A stretch of DNA of 5,934 nucleotides. Source: Candidatus Zixiibacteriota bacterium (lineage in GTDB: Bacteria > RBG-13-66-14 > B26-G2 > WVWN01). The stretch spans positions 1-5,934 of the forward strand of contig JAUWLW010000082.1 of assembly GCA_030613505.1 (NCBI GenBank), given 5' to 3'. Made by a program: the position numbers and the translations under genes. Positions 387-5,934 of the stretch are shown piece by piece (within the stretch, counting starts at the first letter, position 1; every line of letters begins with the position of its first letter). The notes below the pieces were generated by a model. That model saw only the letters and a program-made list of their open reading frames with translations, did not search any database and was not told the DNA's origin.

Positions 387-2099
387 ATGTCGGCTAAGTT
401 CGTGCTGCGTACGTTCCGGAACGTAGTATTTCGGGACCGTCCATATTTCGCCCATCTTACGGTCACGCACCGGGGCAACCGCCGTCGCGGGTTCCGCCGC
501 GCCCGGGGCGGGCGGCTCGAGGAATTGGACACGGAGGGGATGAAGCAGGTCGTCGACGTCCTCGACCGCATGGGGGTGGCGGTGCTGAGCGTCGTTGGGG
601 GAGGGGAACCGCTGTCGCGCCCGGACGTCGCGACGATACTAACCTATGCCGCCCGCAAGGGTTTGTACACCAGAGTTACCTCCAACGGCAAGGCGCCTCG
701 CAAGCGATACGCCGAACTACTCAAGTCCGGCGTCAAAGAGATCGCCATTTCGCTGGACGGCGTGCAGGGCAACGACGCGCCCTTCCGCCGCGTTGGCTCG
801 AGGGCGCTGAAGACGATCCGCTATCTGAACGACAACCTGCCCCCGGGGAAGCGGCTCACGCTGAAAGTCGCCGTGGCCCAGGCCGGTTGCGAGCAGGTCG
901 AAGACCTCGTCTCCTACTGCGCGACGGAATTTCCCAACGCGCTGGTCTGGCTGAATCCGGTCAACGTAGGTTCCGGCGAGTTGGCCGCGGCGACGGAAGC
1001 GGAAGTTGAACCGGCCTACCCGCGGCCGCGCCAATCCCCAACGCTTCTCGATGTCGAATTCTACGAACGGGAATTGGAAGGCCAACGTCGAGGCAATACT
1101 CTCGACTGGGGATGCCGGGCCGGGCGCATGTTCTTCGACGTCGAGCCCAACGGCGATTTTTGGATCTGCAAGGCCCAGCCGTCGCGCGCGCCGCTGAACG
1201 TCCTGGAGGCCGATTTCAGGAAGAAGTTGAGGGAAGCGGACTTTAGCTACCGCCGCGAGTGCGTCGGCTGCAACTATTCGGGCTACGTCGTCACGCAAAA
1301 AGGTTTCGAGCCGCGCAATTGGGTCGACATAGCGGTCTTGTGGTGGTTTGCGAACACCCGTCCCGGCGACCGCTGCCGCGACGTCGCCGCGAGGTACGGC
1401 TGGCCGGCGGGCTTCGCGACGTACTGCGGCGCCAGAATTGTCGACTGGTCCCGTAGGTTGGGCGGGGACGGCGACGGCCGGCCTTCGCGAGGGACGGTCG
1501 TTTACTACCGCTACGGTTGGGGGCGGTCGCCCAAGTCTACCAGCGTACGGCTTGCCCGGCAGCGGCGACTTAGAAGAGAATTGAAGCCCTCGCCGGACGA
1601 CGTCGTCCTGGACGTCGGCTGCAATTTCGGGGCGTTGGTCTCGTACCTGAGGCCGTTCTGCCGGAAAATCGTCGGCATAGACGTCAACGCCGAGGCGGTG
1701 CGGTCTTCGGAGGTGGAAGGCCTGCGGGTGATGGACGGCCGCAAGACCGACTTCCCCGACGGGTACTTCACCAAGGTCGTCTCGAGCCACACCATCGAGC
1801 ACGTCACGGACCTCCCGGCGCTCTTTGCCGAGATCGACCGCATCCTCAAGCCCGGCGGCGAGGTGGTCCTGTACTATCCCTGCGAGCTGTGGCGGGGTAT
1901 GGGGACGATGAGGAACTCGTGGGTCTTCTACAGGAACCCTTTTATGGGTTACAGGATACACGTCAACTGGCTCAGTCACCGGCGCGTCGCCCAGCTGATA
2001 CGGGGGACGGACCTGGGAATATTCCGCAAGAGGTTCTACTTCGACCCGCAGCCGGGATACGTAACCGTTCTTAAGAAAAGGGCGCCGGCGGCGTCGTAG
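387..2099 (+). CDS. Degenerate radical SAM/twitch protein fused to a class I SAM methyltransferase
   Basis: A 570-residue protein. Residues 20-230 look like a radical SAM barrel: TVTH at the first strand, GGGEP at 71-75, TSNG at 98-101 and ISLDG at 121-125. The cluster motif expected as CxxxCxxC reads G30-N-R-R-R34-G-F-R37, so none of the three cysteines that would hold the catalytic 4Fe-4S cluster is present. Residues 243-295 keep CX12GX4C (C243, G256, C261) and CX2C (C292, C295), the pattern of a twitch or shortened SPASM domain binding one auxiliary cluster. After a tryptophan-rich linker, residues 400-500 form a Rossmann methyltransferase: motif I VLDVGCNFG at 407-415, acidic D432, HTIEHV at 468-473 and LKPGGE at 487-492. 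The methyltransferase half looks intact, so SAM-dependent methylation is its likeliest activity; substrate unknown. First gene of a two-gene unit; start set by the upstream GGGGAGG. Confidence 0.85.
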   Translation: MSAKFVLRTFRNVVFRDRPYFAHLTVTHRGNRRRGFRRARGGRLEELDTEGMKQVVDVLDRMGVAVLSVVGGGEPLSRPDVATILTYAARKGLYTRVTSNGKAPRKRYAELLKSGVKEIAISLDGVQGNDAPFRRVGSRALKTIRYLNDNLPPGKRLTLKVAVAQAGCEQVEDLVSYCATEFPNALVWLNPVNVGSGELAAATEAEVEPAYPRPRQSPTLLDVEFYERELEGQRRGNTLDWGCRAGRMFFDVEPNGDFWICKAQPSRAPLNVLEADFRKKLREADFSYRRECVGCNYSGYVVTQKGFEPRNWVDIAVLWWFANTRPGDRCRDVAARYGWPAGFATYCGARIVDWSRRLGGDGDGRPSRGTVVYYRYGWGRSPKSTSVRLARQRRLRRELKPSPDDVVLDVGCNFGALVSYLRPFCRKIVGIDVNAEAVRSSEVEGLRVMDGRKTDFPDGYFTKVVSSHTIEHVTDLPALFAEIDRILKPGGEVVLYYPCELWRGMGTMRNSWVFYRNPFMGYRIHVNWLSHRRVAQLIRGTDLGIFRKRFYFDPQPGYVTVLKKRAPAAS

Positions 2100-2110: not shown

Positions 2111-2119
2111 GTGGCCGCC

Positions 2120-3490
2120 ATGAAACCGTTTTCGACTAACCCGCGGGTTCTATTGTCCACGGTCTACCGGCGATTCGAGGGCGACGTCAACGACGCGCTG
2201 GCCTGCGCCACGCGGGGTATTCCCCGCTTCAGCATGCCCCGGGAACACAGCCCGGGCTTACGCTTCATCAAGCAGAACGTCCCGGAGGTCGAAGTCCTCG
2301 AGTATCCCCGGTGGGACGAATACGTCGCGAAGCTAAAAGAGGGGTGGGACATAGTCGGGTTCAGTTTTTATCAGGCCGAGATAGACGAGATCGAACGGAT
2401 GGCCGAGGAAGCGCGCCGTCAGGGCGTCGGCGAGACCTGGGCCGGCAATTACGGCGCGCTCGACGGCCGCGTCCCGCAAATCGTGGACCGCGTCGTCATA
2501 GGCCCGGGCGAAAACGTATGCGCGCAATTGTTCGGCCGCGGCGTCCGCGAGGACGAGGTCGAGATTCCTCCCGTAATCGGCTACATCCGCACTATCCCCG
2601 GGAACATTCGACATTTCACGTTCGGCACGCTCTATACGCAACGCGGGTGCCCTTATAAATGCACGTTCTGCCAGACGCCGGCCTTCGACCACAAACGGTA
2701 CGACTTCAACGTCGAAAGCGTCGACCGCGTCCTGCGATATTATAAACGGGCCGGCGTGAAGTACATCTTCGTAGCCGACGAGTTCTTCGGCGCTCGAGCG
2801 GAGGCCGCCGACCGCGTTACGGGCCTGCTGGCGCGATACAAGTTGCGCTGGTATTGCCAGACCCGGGCGGCGACGGTCTCGCGCCACCTGGACGAATGGT
2901 ACGAACGGGGCTTGCGCTTCGCCCAAATCGGGGTGGAATCTTTGAACCAGGACGCACTCGACTCGGTAGCCAAGAAACAGACGCGGGAGGAGGTTTTCGC
3001 GTACGCCCGCCGAATGGGTGAAAAAAAAGGTTTAATAAGCGTGGCCGGTTACATGATGGGCTTCCCGAACATGACCGCCGAAGACATCTTCGAGGACGTG
3101 CTCGCCCTTCAACGTACGGGATTTGACATCTACGCCGTCAACGTCGTCACGCCTTATCCCCAAACGCCGTTTTGGGACGAAACCGACGCCAGGTACGGCA
3201 TCTTCGACCGTACGTATCGCCACTTCGACAGTAAGCACTTGGTGTGGCGTCATCCCCACCTGACTCCCGCCCAGATGGAGCTTTTGTACCGAAAGGTAGT
3301 GGGTATTCTCAACTGCCCCTCCGTCTCTTATTGGAAAAGCCTTCGCCGGTTTATGCGAGGGGGATGGCAGGCCGGAGGGCCGAAGTCCCTTTGGCAAAGT
3401 TTGGTAAAAGACCCGGCCGTATCGAAGCGGGTAGGCCGCAAGAAGGCGTTCTTCTTCCCCAAAACCGGGCGGCGTGGGGGCGCCGCGTAG
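2120..3490 (+). CDS. B12-binding-domain type radical SAM protein, intact cluster motif
   Basis: A 456-residue protein counted from ATG 2120. Residues 8-135 resemble the N-terminal cobalamin-binding-like domain of this radical SAM class: IVGFSFY at 78-84, then AGNYG and VVIGPGE where relatives usually have a GG-x-H turn and a GEGE-like turn. No DxHxxG is seen, so base-off His ligation of B12 is unlikely and B12 use itself is uncertain. The radical SAM core starts with RGCPYKCTFC, giving C177, C181 and C184 as the 4Fe-4S ligands. It continues with VADEFF at 218-223, GVES at 271-274, a GYMMGFPNMTAED loop at 310-322 and VTPYPQTPFW at 343-352, all usual marks of this group. A basic tail (KRVGRKKAFFFPK) closes the protein. 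It follows the degenerate radical SAM gene by 20 bp and is very probably co-transcribed with it. The reaction and substrate cannot be named; family assignment is firm, function open. Confidence 0.88.
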   Translation: MKPFSTNPRVLLSTVYRRFEGDVNDALACATRGIPRFSMPREHSPGLRFIKQNVPEVEVLEYPRWDEYVAKLKEGWDIVGFSFYQAEIDEIERMAEEARRQGVGETWAGNYGALDGRVPQIVDRVVIGPGENVCAQLFGRGVREDEVEIPPVIGYIRTIPGNIRHFTFGTLYTQRGCPYKCTFCQTPAFDHKRYDFNVESVDRVLRYYKRAGVKYIFVADEFFGARAEAADRVTGLLARYKLRWYCQTRAATVSRHLDEWYERGLRFAQIGVESLNQDALDSVAKKQTREEVFAYARRMGEKKGLISVAGYMMGFPNMTAEDIFEDVLALQRTGFDIYAVNVVTPYPQTPFWDETDARYGIFDRTYRHFDSKHLVWRHPHLTPAQMELLYRKVVGILNCPSVSYWKSLRRFMRGGWQAGGPKSLWQSLVKDPAVSKRVGRKKAFFFPKTGRRGGAA

Positions 3491-3548: not shown

Positions 3549-3574
3549 GGCCGGCCTTCGCATCGGCCCTTTTT
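3549..3574 (+). terminator. Intrinsic terminator of the radical SAM operon
   Basis: GGCCGG at 3549-3554 pairs with TCGGCC at 3563-3568, with one G-T wobble, around a TTCG-containing loop. TTTTT at 3570-3574 follows. It is homologous to the cleaner terminator at 5855-5882. It separates the radical SAM unit from the NHL genes. Confidence 0.75.
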
Positions 3575-3576
3575 AG

Positions 3577-3606
3577 TTGGTGCCGTTCGGGATTTCTTGT
3601 TATAGT
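3577..3606 (+). promoter_or_regulatory. Extended -10 promoter of the first NHL gene
   Basis: TATAGT at 3601-3606 is preceded by TG at 3598-3599, giving an extended -10 (TGTTATAGT). A weak -35, TTGGTG at 3577-3582, sits 18 bp upstream. The same layout and spacing are seen before the second NHL gene and at the end of the window. Transcription would start near 3613-3614, giving a leader of about 31 nt. Confidence 0.65.
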
Positions 3607-3613
3607 AAATATC

Positions 3614-3635
3614 AGAGGGCAGTAGCTCGAGGAGG
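3614..3635 (+). promoter_or_regulatory. Conserved leader motif plus Shine-Dalgarno, NHL gene 1
   Basis: AGAGGGCAGTAGC at 3614-3626 begins about where the transcript should start and is repeated exactly at 5922-5934 and with three changes at 4783-4795. GAGGAGG at 3629-3635 is the ribosome binding site, nine bases before ATG 3645. The role of the motif is unknown; it may be only the shared 5' end of a duplicated cassette. Confidence 0.6.
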
Positions 3636-3644
3636 TAAAGGGAA

Positions 3645-4619
3645 ATGAAGAAGCTCGCGATAACGACGGCCGCGGCGCTCGGCGCGCTGGCGGCCGTTTG
3701 CGCGTGGGGCGATTGGGTCTACGAGGGCAAGTGGGGCGGTTACGGCAACAAGATCGGGCGATTCGATTTGCCTTACGACGTAGCTGTCGCGCCGAACGGC
3801 AACGTCTACGTCGCCGACACACAGAACGGCCGCATTCAATATTTCTCCGCGACCGGATATTTCCTCGGCATGTGGGACCGCGGCGCGGGGCCTTATGGCA
3901 AAATAAACCATCCAATGGGCGTTGCCGTAGCCCGGAACGGCCGCGTTTACGTAGCCGATACTAATCAAAAACGCGTCCAGTATTTTACCGCGACCGGTTC
4001 GTTCCTCGGCAGGTGGGGCTCAAAGGGTCGGGGCGACGGTCAGTTCATGTCACTTAGAGGTTTGGCAGTCGCGCCGAACAGTAACATCTATACAGCCGAC
4101 TCAGGAAATTATCGCGTCCAATATTTTACACCTACGGGATCGTTCGTGGGTAAGTGGGGGACCTGGGGGGTGGGAGAAGGCCAATTCGACAGGGCGGCGG
4201 GTATAGACGTGGCCCCTAACGGTAACGTTTACGTCGCGGATACTTGCAACGACCGCGTACAATATTTCACCGCTACGGGTTCTTTCCTCGGTAAATGGTA
4301 CGGCAGTAGTCCCGGTTTCGAACCACCATTCGCTATGCCGCAGGGCGTGGCAATAGGCCGTAACGGTTCCGTTTTCGTAGCCGATACTAACAACGATAGG
4401 ATCCGGTATTTCACGGCGAACGGTTCTTTCCTCGGCGGGTGGGGTCGGTTCGGCGTGCGGGGAGGCGAATTCGATTGTCCGACCGGCGTCTCCTGTTCGC
4501 CTACCGGCGGCCGATTATACGTCGCCGATTCTTGGAACCACCGCATCCAATACTTCCGCTGGTCCGACGCCGCCGTCGCGCCCGCCTCGCTGGGCCGGGT
4601 GAAGGCGTTGTTTAGGTAG
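3645..4619 (+). CDS. Secreted six-bladed NHL-repeat beta-propeller, paralogue 1
   Basis: A 324-residue protein. The N-terminus is a Sec signal peptide: MKK, a hydrophobic run, and a likely signal peptidase I site AWG/D after residue 22. Six NHL repeats follow, at about 38-84, 85-131, 132-178, 179-227, 228-273 and 274-306. Most are 47 residues with the core YVADTxNxRVQYF followed by TATGSFLGKWG. The last repeat is short, and the stretch after the signal peptide (DWVYEGKWG) matches the missing outer strand, so the ring probably closes by joining N- and C-terminal strands. Blade 4 carries a two-residue insertion (YGSSPGFEP). The tail ends SLGRVKALFR, identical in the downstream paralogue. NHL propellers usually bind proteins, RNA or small ligands; no catalytic residues are evident, so a binding role outside the cytoplasm is the best inference. 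It has its own promoter and terminator. Confidence 0.9.
   Translation: MKKLAITTAAALGALAAVCAWGDWVYEGKWGGYGNKIGRFDLPYDVAVAPNGNVYVADTQNGRIQYFSATGYFLGMWDRGAGPYGKINHPMGVAVARNGRVYVADTNQKRVQYFTATGSFLGRWGSKGRGDGQFMSLRGLAVAPNSNIYTADSGNYRVQYFTPTGSFVGKWGTWGVGEGQFDRAAGIDVAPNGNVYVADTCNDRVQYFTATGSFLGKWYGSSPGFEPPFAMPQGVAIGRNGSVFVADTNNDRIRYFTANGSFLGGWGRFGVRGGEFDCPTGVSCSPTGGRLYVADSWNHRIQYFRWSDAAVAPASLGRVKALFR
3756..4562 (+). repeat. Array of about 141-bp NHL-coding repeats, gene 1
   Basis: Five full units and one short unit encode the six blades. Unit length is 141 bp except blade 4 (147 bp), blade 5 (138 bp) and the final partial blade (99 bp). Similarity is visible in the DNA as recurring GTCGCCGA/GTAGCCGA and CAATATTTCAC/CAGTATTTTAC blocks. 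This is a coding repeat, not a CRISPR array. Confidence 0.8.
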
Positions 4620-4812: not shown

Positions 4813-5784
4813 ATGAAGAAGCTCGCCATAACGACGGCCGCGGCGCTGACGGCGCTGGCGGCTTTTTGCGCGTTCGGCGAGTGGGTGTACGAGGGCAAGT
4901 GGGGCTCGACCGGAACCGGCAACGGACAATTTAACCACCCCGACAACGTAGCGATCGGTCCCGGCGGCCACGTTTACGTACTCGATACCAACAACAACCG
5001 CGTCCAATACTTCACCGCTGACGGGTATTTCCTGGGTAAATGGGGAACAAAAGGTAAATCCAGAGGTCAGTTTTTCAAACCTTCGGGCGTAGCCGTCGGC
5101 CGGCAAGGAATCGTTTACGTGGCCGATACCTTCAACGACCGTGTCCAGTACTTCTCGGCCAGCGGTTCCTTCCTGGGTGCGTGGGGTTCAAGAGGGAGGG
5201 CCACAGGGCTATTCATGAAGCCTAAGGGCGTAGCCGTTGCGCGGGCCGGCACAGTATACGTGGCGGATACGGACAACGACCGCGTACAATACTTTACCGT
5301 GACCGGCTCCTATCTCGGCGCGTGGGGTATACGGGGGATAGGTTGCGGCGAATTCCGGGACCCGTATGACGTGGCGGTAGCGCCCAACGGCAACGTCTAC
5401 GTCACCGATTCGTACAACCACCGCGTCCAGCGCTTCACGGCCGCCGGTAAGTTCCTCGGCTGGTGGGGTCATTTGGGCGCCGGAGAAGGGCAATTCAGCG
5501 TGCCTTCCGGCCTGAACAGCGCGTTTAACGGGGACGTCTACGTCGCCGACACAAATAACCACCGGATTCAATACTTCACCGCAACTGGTTCGTTCCTCGG
5601 CGAGTGGGGTAAGCGCGGGTCCGGTAAAGGCGGATTTTTATACCCCCTCGGCGTCGCGGTAAATCGGGAGCGCGACCGAGCGTACGTAGCCGATTCGGTT
5701 AACAACCGCATTCAATATTTCAAAGATACGGAGTACGCCGTCGAACCCACCTCGCTGGGCCGCGTGAAGGCGCTGTTTAGATAA
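4813..5784 (+). CDS. Secreted six-bladed NHL-repeat beta-propeller, paralogue 2
   Basis: A 323-residue paralogue of the upstream NHL protein. The first 12 residues are identical and it has the same signal peptide design, with a likely cut AFG/E after residue 22. Six NHL repeats lie at 38-84, 85-131, 132-178, 179-225, 226-272 and 273-305; the first five are each exactly 47 residues, more regular than in paralogue 1. Each repeat has the YVADTxNxRVQYF core; blade 1 has YVLD and blade 4 has YVTD and QRF. The strand EWVYEGKWG after the signal peptide can complete blade 6. The last ten residues, SLGRVKALFR, are identical to paralogue 1, although the blades differ a good deal. A binding role outside the cytoplasm is inferred, with no active site seen. 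The gene has its own promoter and terminator, so it is probably expressed separately from its neighbour. Confidence 0.9.
   Translation: MKKLAITTAAALTALAAFCAFGEWVYEGKWGSTGTGNGQFNHPDNVAIGPGGHVYVLDTNNNRVQYFTADGYFLGKWGTKGKSRGQFFKPSGVAVGRQGIVYVADTFNDRVQYFSASGSFLGAWGSRGRATGLFMKPKGVAVARAGTVYVADTDNDRVQYFTVTGSYLGAWGIRGIGCGEFRDPYDVAVAPNGNVYVTDSYNHRVQRFTAAGKFLGWWGHLGAGEGQFSVPSGLNSAFNGDVYVADTNNHRIQYFTATGSFLGEWGKRGSGKGGFLYPLGVAVNRERDRAYVADSVNNRIQYFKDTEYAVEPTSLGRVKALFR
4924..5727 (+). repeat. Array of 141-bp NHL-coding repeats, gene 2
   Basis: Five consecutive units of exactly 141 bp and a final 99-bp unit encode the propeller blades. The unbroken period suggests growth by unequal recombination of one blade-coding unit, or strong constraint on blade length. 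Confidence 0.8.
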
Positions 5785-5854: not shown

Positions 5855-5882
5855 GGGCCGACCTTCGCGTCGGCCCTTTTTT
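5855..5882 (+). terminator. Intrinsic terminator of NHL gene 2
   Basis: GGGCCGAC at 5855-5862 and GTCGGCCC at 5869-5876 form a perfect eight-pair stem around CTTCGC, followed by six T (5877-5882). This is the clearest terminator in the window. Confidence 0.85.
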
Positions 5883-5884
5883 AG

Positions 5885-5914
5885 TTGTAGCTGTTCGGGA
5901 TTTTCTGTTATATT
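5885..5914 (+). promoter_or_regulatory. Third copy of the extended -10 promoter, facing off the window edge
   Basis: TATATT at 5909-5914 with TG at 5906-5907 forms an extended -10, and TTGTAG at 5885-5890 is a weak -35 at 18 bp. GTTCGGGATTT at 5893-5903 is identical to the segment at 3585-3595 in the first promoter. Confidence 0.6.
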
Positions 5915-5921
5915 TAATCGC

Positions 5922-5934
5922 AGAGGGCAGTAGC
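5922..5934 (+). promoter_or_regulatory. Third copy of the leader motif, cut by the window end
   Basis: AGAGGGCAGTAGC is identical to 3614-3626 and lies at the same distance from the -10 (seven bases). By analogy with the first copy, a Shine-Dalgarno site and an ATG should follow, the ATG about 19 bases beyond the last base. Confidence 0.55.

Follow-up and report, generated by a model that had tools for sequence, protein, structure and literature searches.

A radical SAM domain without its cluster cysteines, fused to a class I methyltransferase in a Candidatus Zixiibacteriota bacterium: a probable pseudoenzyme

Among kinases and proteases, pseudoenzymes are a familiar phenomenon. To our knowledge, they have hardly been described in the radical SAM superfamily, where a barrel without its cluster is incapable of radical SAM chemistry. 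The open-access literature, searched for both terms, yielded no relevant paper on radical SAM pseudoenzymes. They are nevertheless already a named kind: the NCBIfam family TIGR04347 (haloarchaeal pseudo-SAM/SPASM) comprises, by its name, radical SAM/SPASM homologues devoid of radical SAM function. Catalytic enzymes of the PqqE, NirJ and AhbD type possess the CX3CX2C motif, the barrel fold and a set of C-terminal cysteines. Twitch domains contain three or four cysteines and one auxiliary cluster, while the SPASM motif includes CX17C and CX2C spacings (PMC10452713). The protein described here shares the barrel fold and the C-terminal cysteines with the PqqE, NirJ and AhbD-type enzymes, NirJ1 being its best NCBIfam match, and differs from them in the absence of CX3CX2C.

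Architecture of the fusion protein and its lost cysteines

The stretch of DNA analysed (the window, 5,934 nucleotides) comes from a metagenome-assembled genome of 2.86 Mb, in which it constitutes contig C57. It carries a gene for a 570-residue fusion protein (387-2099, plus strand, as are the parts of this gene, its ribosome site and its downstream neighbour given below), preceded 6 bases before the ATG by GGGGAGG (374-380), which resembles a ribosome-binding site. The layout is as follows: (i) a radical SAM part lacking the cluster cysteines, with a twitch-like domain (residues 1-357); (ii) a variable linker; (iii) a class I SAM-dependent methyltransferase domain (1572-2084), starting at about residue 396. 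A full-length orthologue in a second species, introduced below, has the same architecture; the linker differs in length between the two and stays in frame.

The Pfam profile PF04055 (Radical_SAM) matches residues 40-129 (E 4e-9; 37.3 bits against a gathering cut-off of 29.5), and the match begins at profile position 21, leaving the cysteine loop outside it. By this homology and a predicted (beta/alpha)6 partial barrel the domain belongs to the radical SAM fold; with G30, R34 and R37 in place of CX3CX2C it does not belong to the active radical SAM enzymes. A profile match alone should not lead to annotation of genes of this type as radical SAM enzymes, because the Pfam profile still fires. The methyltransferase domain is recognised by Pfam Methyltransf_11 (1.9e-18; PF08241 match at residues 407-494, 67.3 bits against a cut-off of 21.2) and by phmmer matches to solved methyltransferases. 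Its motif I, DVGCNFG, places it among the class I enzymes with a Rossmann-type SAM-binding domain, and this SAM motif is kept in the orthologue as DVGCFDG.

The cluster loop itself is degenerate. At 459-503 the window has TVTHRGNRRRGFRRA, where intact relatives read CNLRCRFC, and the segment aligned to the radical SAM cluster loop is THRGNRRRGFRR. Cysteine 30 is replaced by glycine (GGC, 474-476), cysteine 34 by arginine (CGC, 486-488) and cysteine 37 by arginine (CGC, 495-497), each codon being one first-base change from TGC. An earlier sequence-only reading had noticed these three replacements in an open frame of 570 codons and had regarded the catalytic 4Fe-4S site as gone. The codons and the frame are as it described, and its view of the site agrees with the composition of residues 1-167, which contain no cysteine at all, hence none that could substitute at the cluster site. 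A downstream start bypassing the motif was rejected, as it is contradicted by residues 1-29, near-identical in all four sequences and placed behind a good ribosome site. Recoding of CGC is improbable, given the frequent use of this codon at ordinary arginine positions.

A fourth cysteine has been lost from the C-terminal CxxCxxxC. Codon 299 (GGC, 1281-1283) encodes glycine in both full-length proteins without cluster cysteines, and both intact relatives have cysteine there. The remaining members of the SPASM/twitch set, C243, C261, C292 and C295 (1113-1271), are kept; C243-x17-C261 and C292-x2-C295 are invariant in all four close sequences. These four residues are putative auxiliary-cluster ligands of the twitch-like domain and could possibly still hold such a cluster, in a region where the structure model is weak.

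The remaining core motifs, which the sequence-only reading had found preserved, are indeed present in the window: GGGEP (597-611), TSNG (678-689) and ISLDG. This does not extend to the orthologue, where the first two have become GAEDP and TSPG, so that the SAM-site motifs (GGEP and the ribose contact) kept by the window are missing. Such further loss would be expected if the pocket were still relaxing.

An AlphaFold2 model was built with 20 sequences and reached a mean pLDDT of 55 for the window protein and 65 for an intact one. Six barrel strands are predicted between residues 43 and 190, for the most part confidently. Confidence is low in the methyltransferase and in the cluster loop, the block 31-40 scoring 44 in the window protein against 63 in the intact protein. 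Even without the motif, the model finds its best structural match by VIA-align in PqqE (6c8v; Z 18.1, rmsd 3.4, 230 residues aligned); further matches are to SPASM/twitch enzymes such as BtrN. Since the alignment already carries homology into the fold search, these matches show that the domain is compatible with a radical SAM barrel and are not independent proof of it.

Relatives within the genus and genomic surroundings

In the collections searched (14 genomes from the phylum, and GTDB), close relatives are confined to three species. The second species (G002; CP070633.1, Candidatus Coatesbacteria bin961), of the same genus and assembled independently, encodes the orthologue (L010), which is 75-77% identical and fused as in the window. 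Its loop, THGGD-RRGFR, has none of the three cysteines and is one codon shorter. A second, shortened copy without the cysteines is present in the window's own genome on contig C38 (L052:7693-8025); it shows 87% identity over its first 69 codons and has THRGDGRRRLRR as its loop. All three copies without the cysteines have glycine at position 30. The exact residues are otherwise not fixed, the orthologue having glycine, a one-codon deletion and arginine, so that the common feature is the absence of cysteines and not G/R/R itself.

In the third species (G003; WVWN01000051.1) the relatives are two genes in tandem, with 67% and 58% identity over residues 1-359. Both read THRCNLRCRFC, stop at codon 359 and have no methyltransferase. 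TGC codons, whose occurrence in close relatives would have spoken against the sequence-only reading, are thus absent from the closest orthologue and found only in these more distant, unfused copies. C30, C34 and C37 are present in every other member of the 20-sequence alignment, including all sixteen more distant relatives, and absent only in the window protein and its orthologue, the only two full-length sequences of this type in the collections searched. Cysteine loss and methyltransferase gain map to one branch, and comparison of the sequences points to a probable loss of the cysteines in a common ancestor of the two species.

The first 141 bases of the window are identical to the last 141 of contig C38 (L052 8710-8850). 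This is probably an assembly overlap that makes the two contigs neighbours, and it would place the C38 copy immediately upstream of the window gene. A copy of one zinc-ribbon membrane protein gene precedes each of the two. The reading frame of the C38 copy continues into the tail of an NHL-repeat gene, and in G003 what is left of a third radical SAM copy (L054 10317-10429) ends in an SLGRVKALFR-like tail. The family duplicates and breaks often.

Further downstream the window encodes two NHL-repeat proteins (3645-4619 and 4813-5784) with signal-peptide-like N-termini, whose tails (4593-4619 and 5758-5784) are PASLGRVKALFR and PTSLGRVKALFR. A repeat between genes, 85% identical in its two copies, stands before the first NHL gene (3549-3626) and after the second, at the window end (5856-5934); it is possibly a promoter or leader region of NHL genes and a recombination site. 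A degenerate DNA pattern for GR[VI]KALFR followed by a stop occurs 30-41 times per genome in all four species of the genus and 0-1 times in each of ten other genomes of the phylum, with 0 for a reversed control. The synonymous codons of this tail vary, and on C38 it ends several unrelated predicted secreted open reading frames; it resembles a C-terminal tag for export or sorting, specific to this genus.

Selection after the loss

Constraint after the loss was estimated with a four-sequence codon model, written for this case, with a separate omega for each branch. For residues 1-357 omega is 0.20 on the two post-loss tips, and fixing it at 1 costs 47.4 lnL units; this and the following omega values are orders of size only, because dS is uneven along the gene (0.36 to 0.85) and suggests gene conversion, which weakens rate tests. 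The post-loss omega is 0.29 in the core (residues 1-236; omega = 1 worse by 17.6 lnL units) and 0.08 in the C-terminal domain (worse by 37.5). The G002 tip alone rejects omega = 1 (22.0 lnL units); for the window tip alone this value is not clearly rejected (delta lnL 1.6). A change of function on the branch leading to the pair without cysteines would be expected to raise the core omega there, and it is 0.67 on that branch against 0.13 on the intact branches; the raised-omega branch model gains 13.7 in 2 x delta lnL over a single omega, with two more parameters. Between the window and the orthologue, pairwise omega over residues 1-357 is 0.29 (bootstrap 0.21-0.40). The methyltransferase, at 0.35 (0.21-0.58), is constrained to a similar degree, and in the linker, at 0.62 (0.04-1.36), constraint is weak at most. 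Neutral drift would be expected to produce about 5 stops in the 357 codons, and none is observed (P about 0.005). Purifying selection on the radical SAM domain after the loss of its catalytic cysteines is thereby shown statistically for the two later branches jointly, as in a maintained pseudoenzyme.

These values bear on a rather unlikely explanation, in which the radical SAM half is a slowly decaying relic whose frame is open only because the downstream methyltransferase needs translation. It would account for the four lost cysteines, the additional loss of GGGEP and TSNG in the orthologue and the reduction of the sister copies to broken remnants, both on C38 and in G003, as well as for the window tip, where neutrality is not strongly rejected. 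The constraint on amino acids, however, goes beyond an open frame on the post-loss tips and above all in the C-terminal domain, and omega for the radical SAM half is at about the level of the methyltransferase or lower. The explanation is retained mainly because the family so often duplicates and breaks.

Possible role and comparison with known systems

The preferred reading, which is reasonably probable, is that of a true radical SAM pseudoenzyme, its barrel holding or recognising a substrate or serving as a scaffold for the fused methyltransferase. The ancestor would have been an enzyme of the radical SAM/twitch type, which survives intact in the tandem genes of the sister species; comparison with these shows that all three catalytic 4Fe-4S ligands were lost and a class I methyltransferase was joined on. 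The dead barrel then stayed under purifying selection, as seen on the two later branches together. From the chemistry of the superfamily, this barrel should be unable to cleave SAM reductively. Most likely, the barrel and the C-terminal domain would bind or recognise a substrate, or else give the protein a scaffold, and the fused methyltransferase would methylate that substrate with SAM by ordinary polar transfer. A substrate-binding or scaffold role is considered most likely because the barrel is constrained, both species retain the fusion and the methyltransferase has an intact SAM motif. The maintained pseudoenzyme proposed by the sequence-only reading is thus supported, both by selection after the loss and by the modelled barrel, and is to be extended by the methyltransferase fusion, the fourth lost cysteine and the further decay of SAM-site motifs in the orthologue.

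It is quite unlikely that the radical SAM half instead serves a different, active radical SAM enzyme, as its pseudoenzyme partner or its regulator, with the methyltransferase incidental. A candidate partner is encoded 12 bases downstream of the window gene: a B12-binding-type radical SAM gene (2111-3490) with an intact CPYKCTFC, of which G003 has a 73% identical copy near its intact genes. In G002, however, this gene is not adjacent to the orthologue, its nearest relative there being only 57% identical and about 650 kb away, and no close active paralogue of the pseudoenzyme was found in the window's genome (G000) or in G002. Non-canonical binding of a cluster or of SAM, with radical chemistry continuing, is very improbable: GGGEP, TSNG and SLDG are kept in the window, and an auxiliary cluster could sit on the four C-terminal cysteines, but residues 1-167 offer no cysteine and the SAM-contact motifs are also lost in the orthologue. 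A sequencing or assembly artefact, conceivable in a metagenome assembly with a GC-rich loop (88% GC) and contig ends near repeats, is excluded for practical purposes, whether as read error or as chimera, by changes that are in frame and by the recurrence of the loss on C38 and in the independent assembly of another species, in agreement with the sequence-only reading, which had doubted random read errors.

The C-terminal domain of the fusion protein is like the DVU_1556-like and phosphoethanolamine-type class I methyltransferases, which, unlike the window protein, show no fusion to a radical SAM barrel among the hits examined. TIGR04347 is likewise a pseudo-radical SAM family, to which the window protein is likened by family name; its scores of 43.5-44.5 bits against a cut-off of 525 leave it outside that family, as a different variant of a named kind. 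The G003 tandem genes have the same N-terminus and C-terminal cysteines as the window gene, but they are unfused and keep CNLRCRFC and Cys299, whereas the window gene is fused and has lost these cysteines. Intact and dead relatives within one genus form a natural before-and-after pair, through which it can be asked what a cluster-free radical SAM barrel is able to do.
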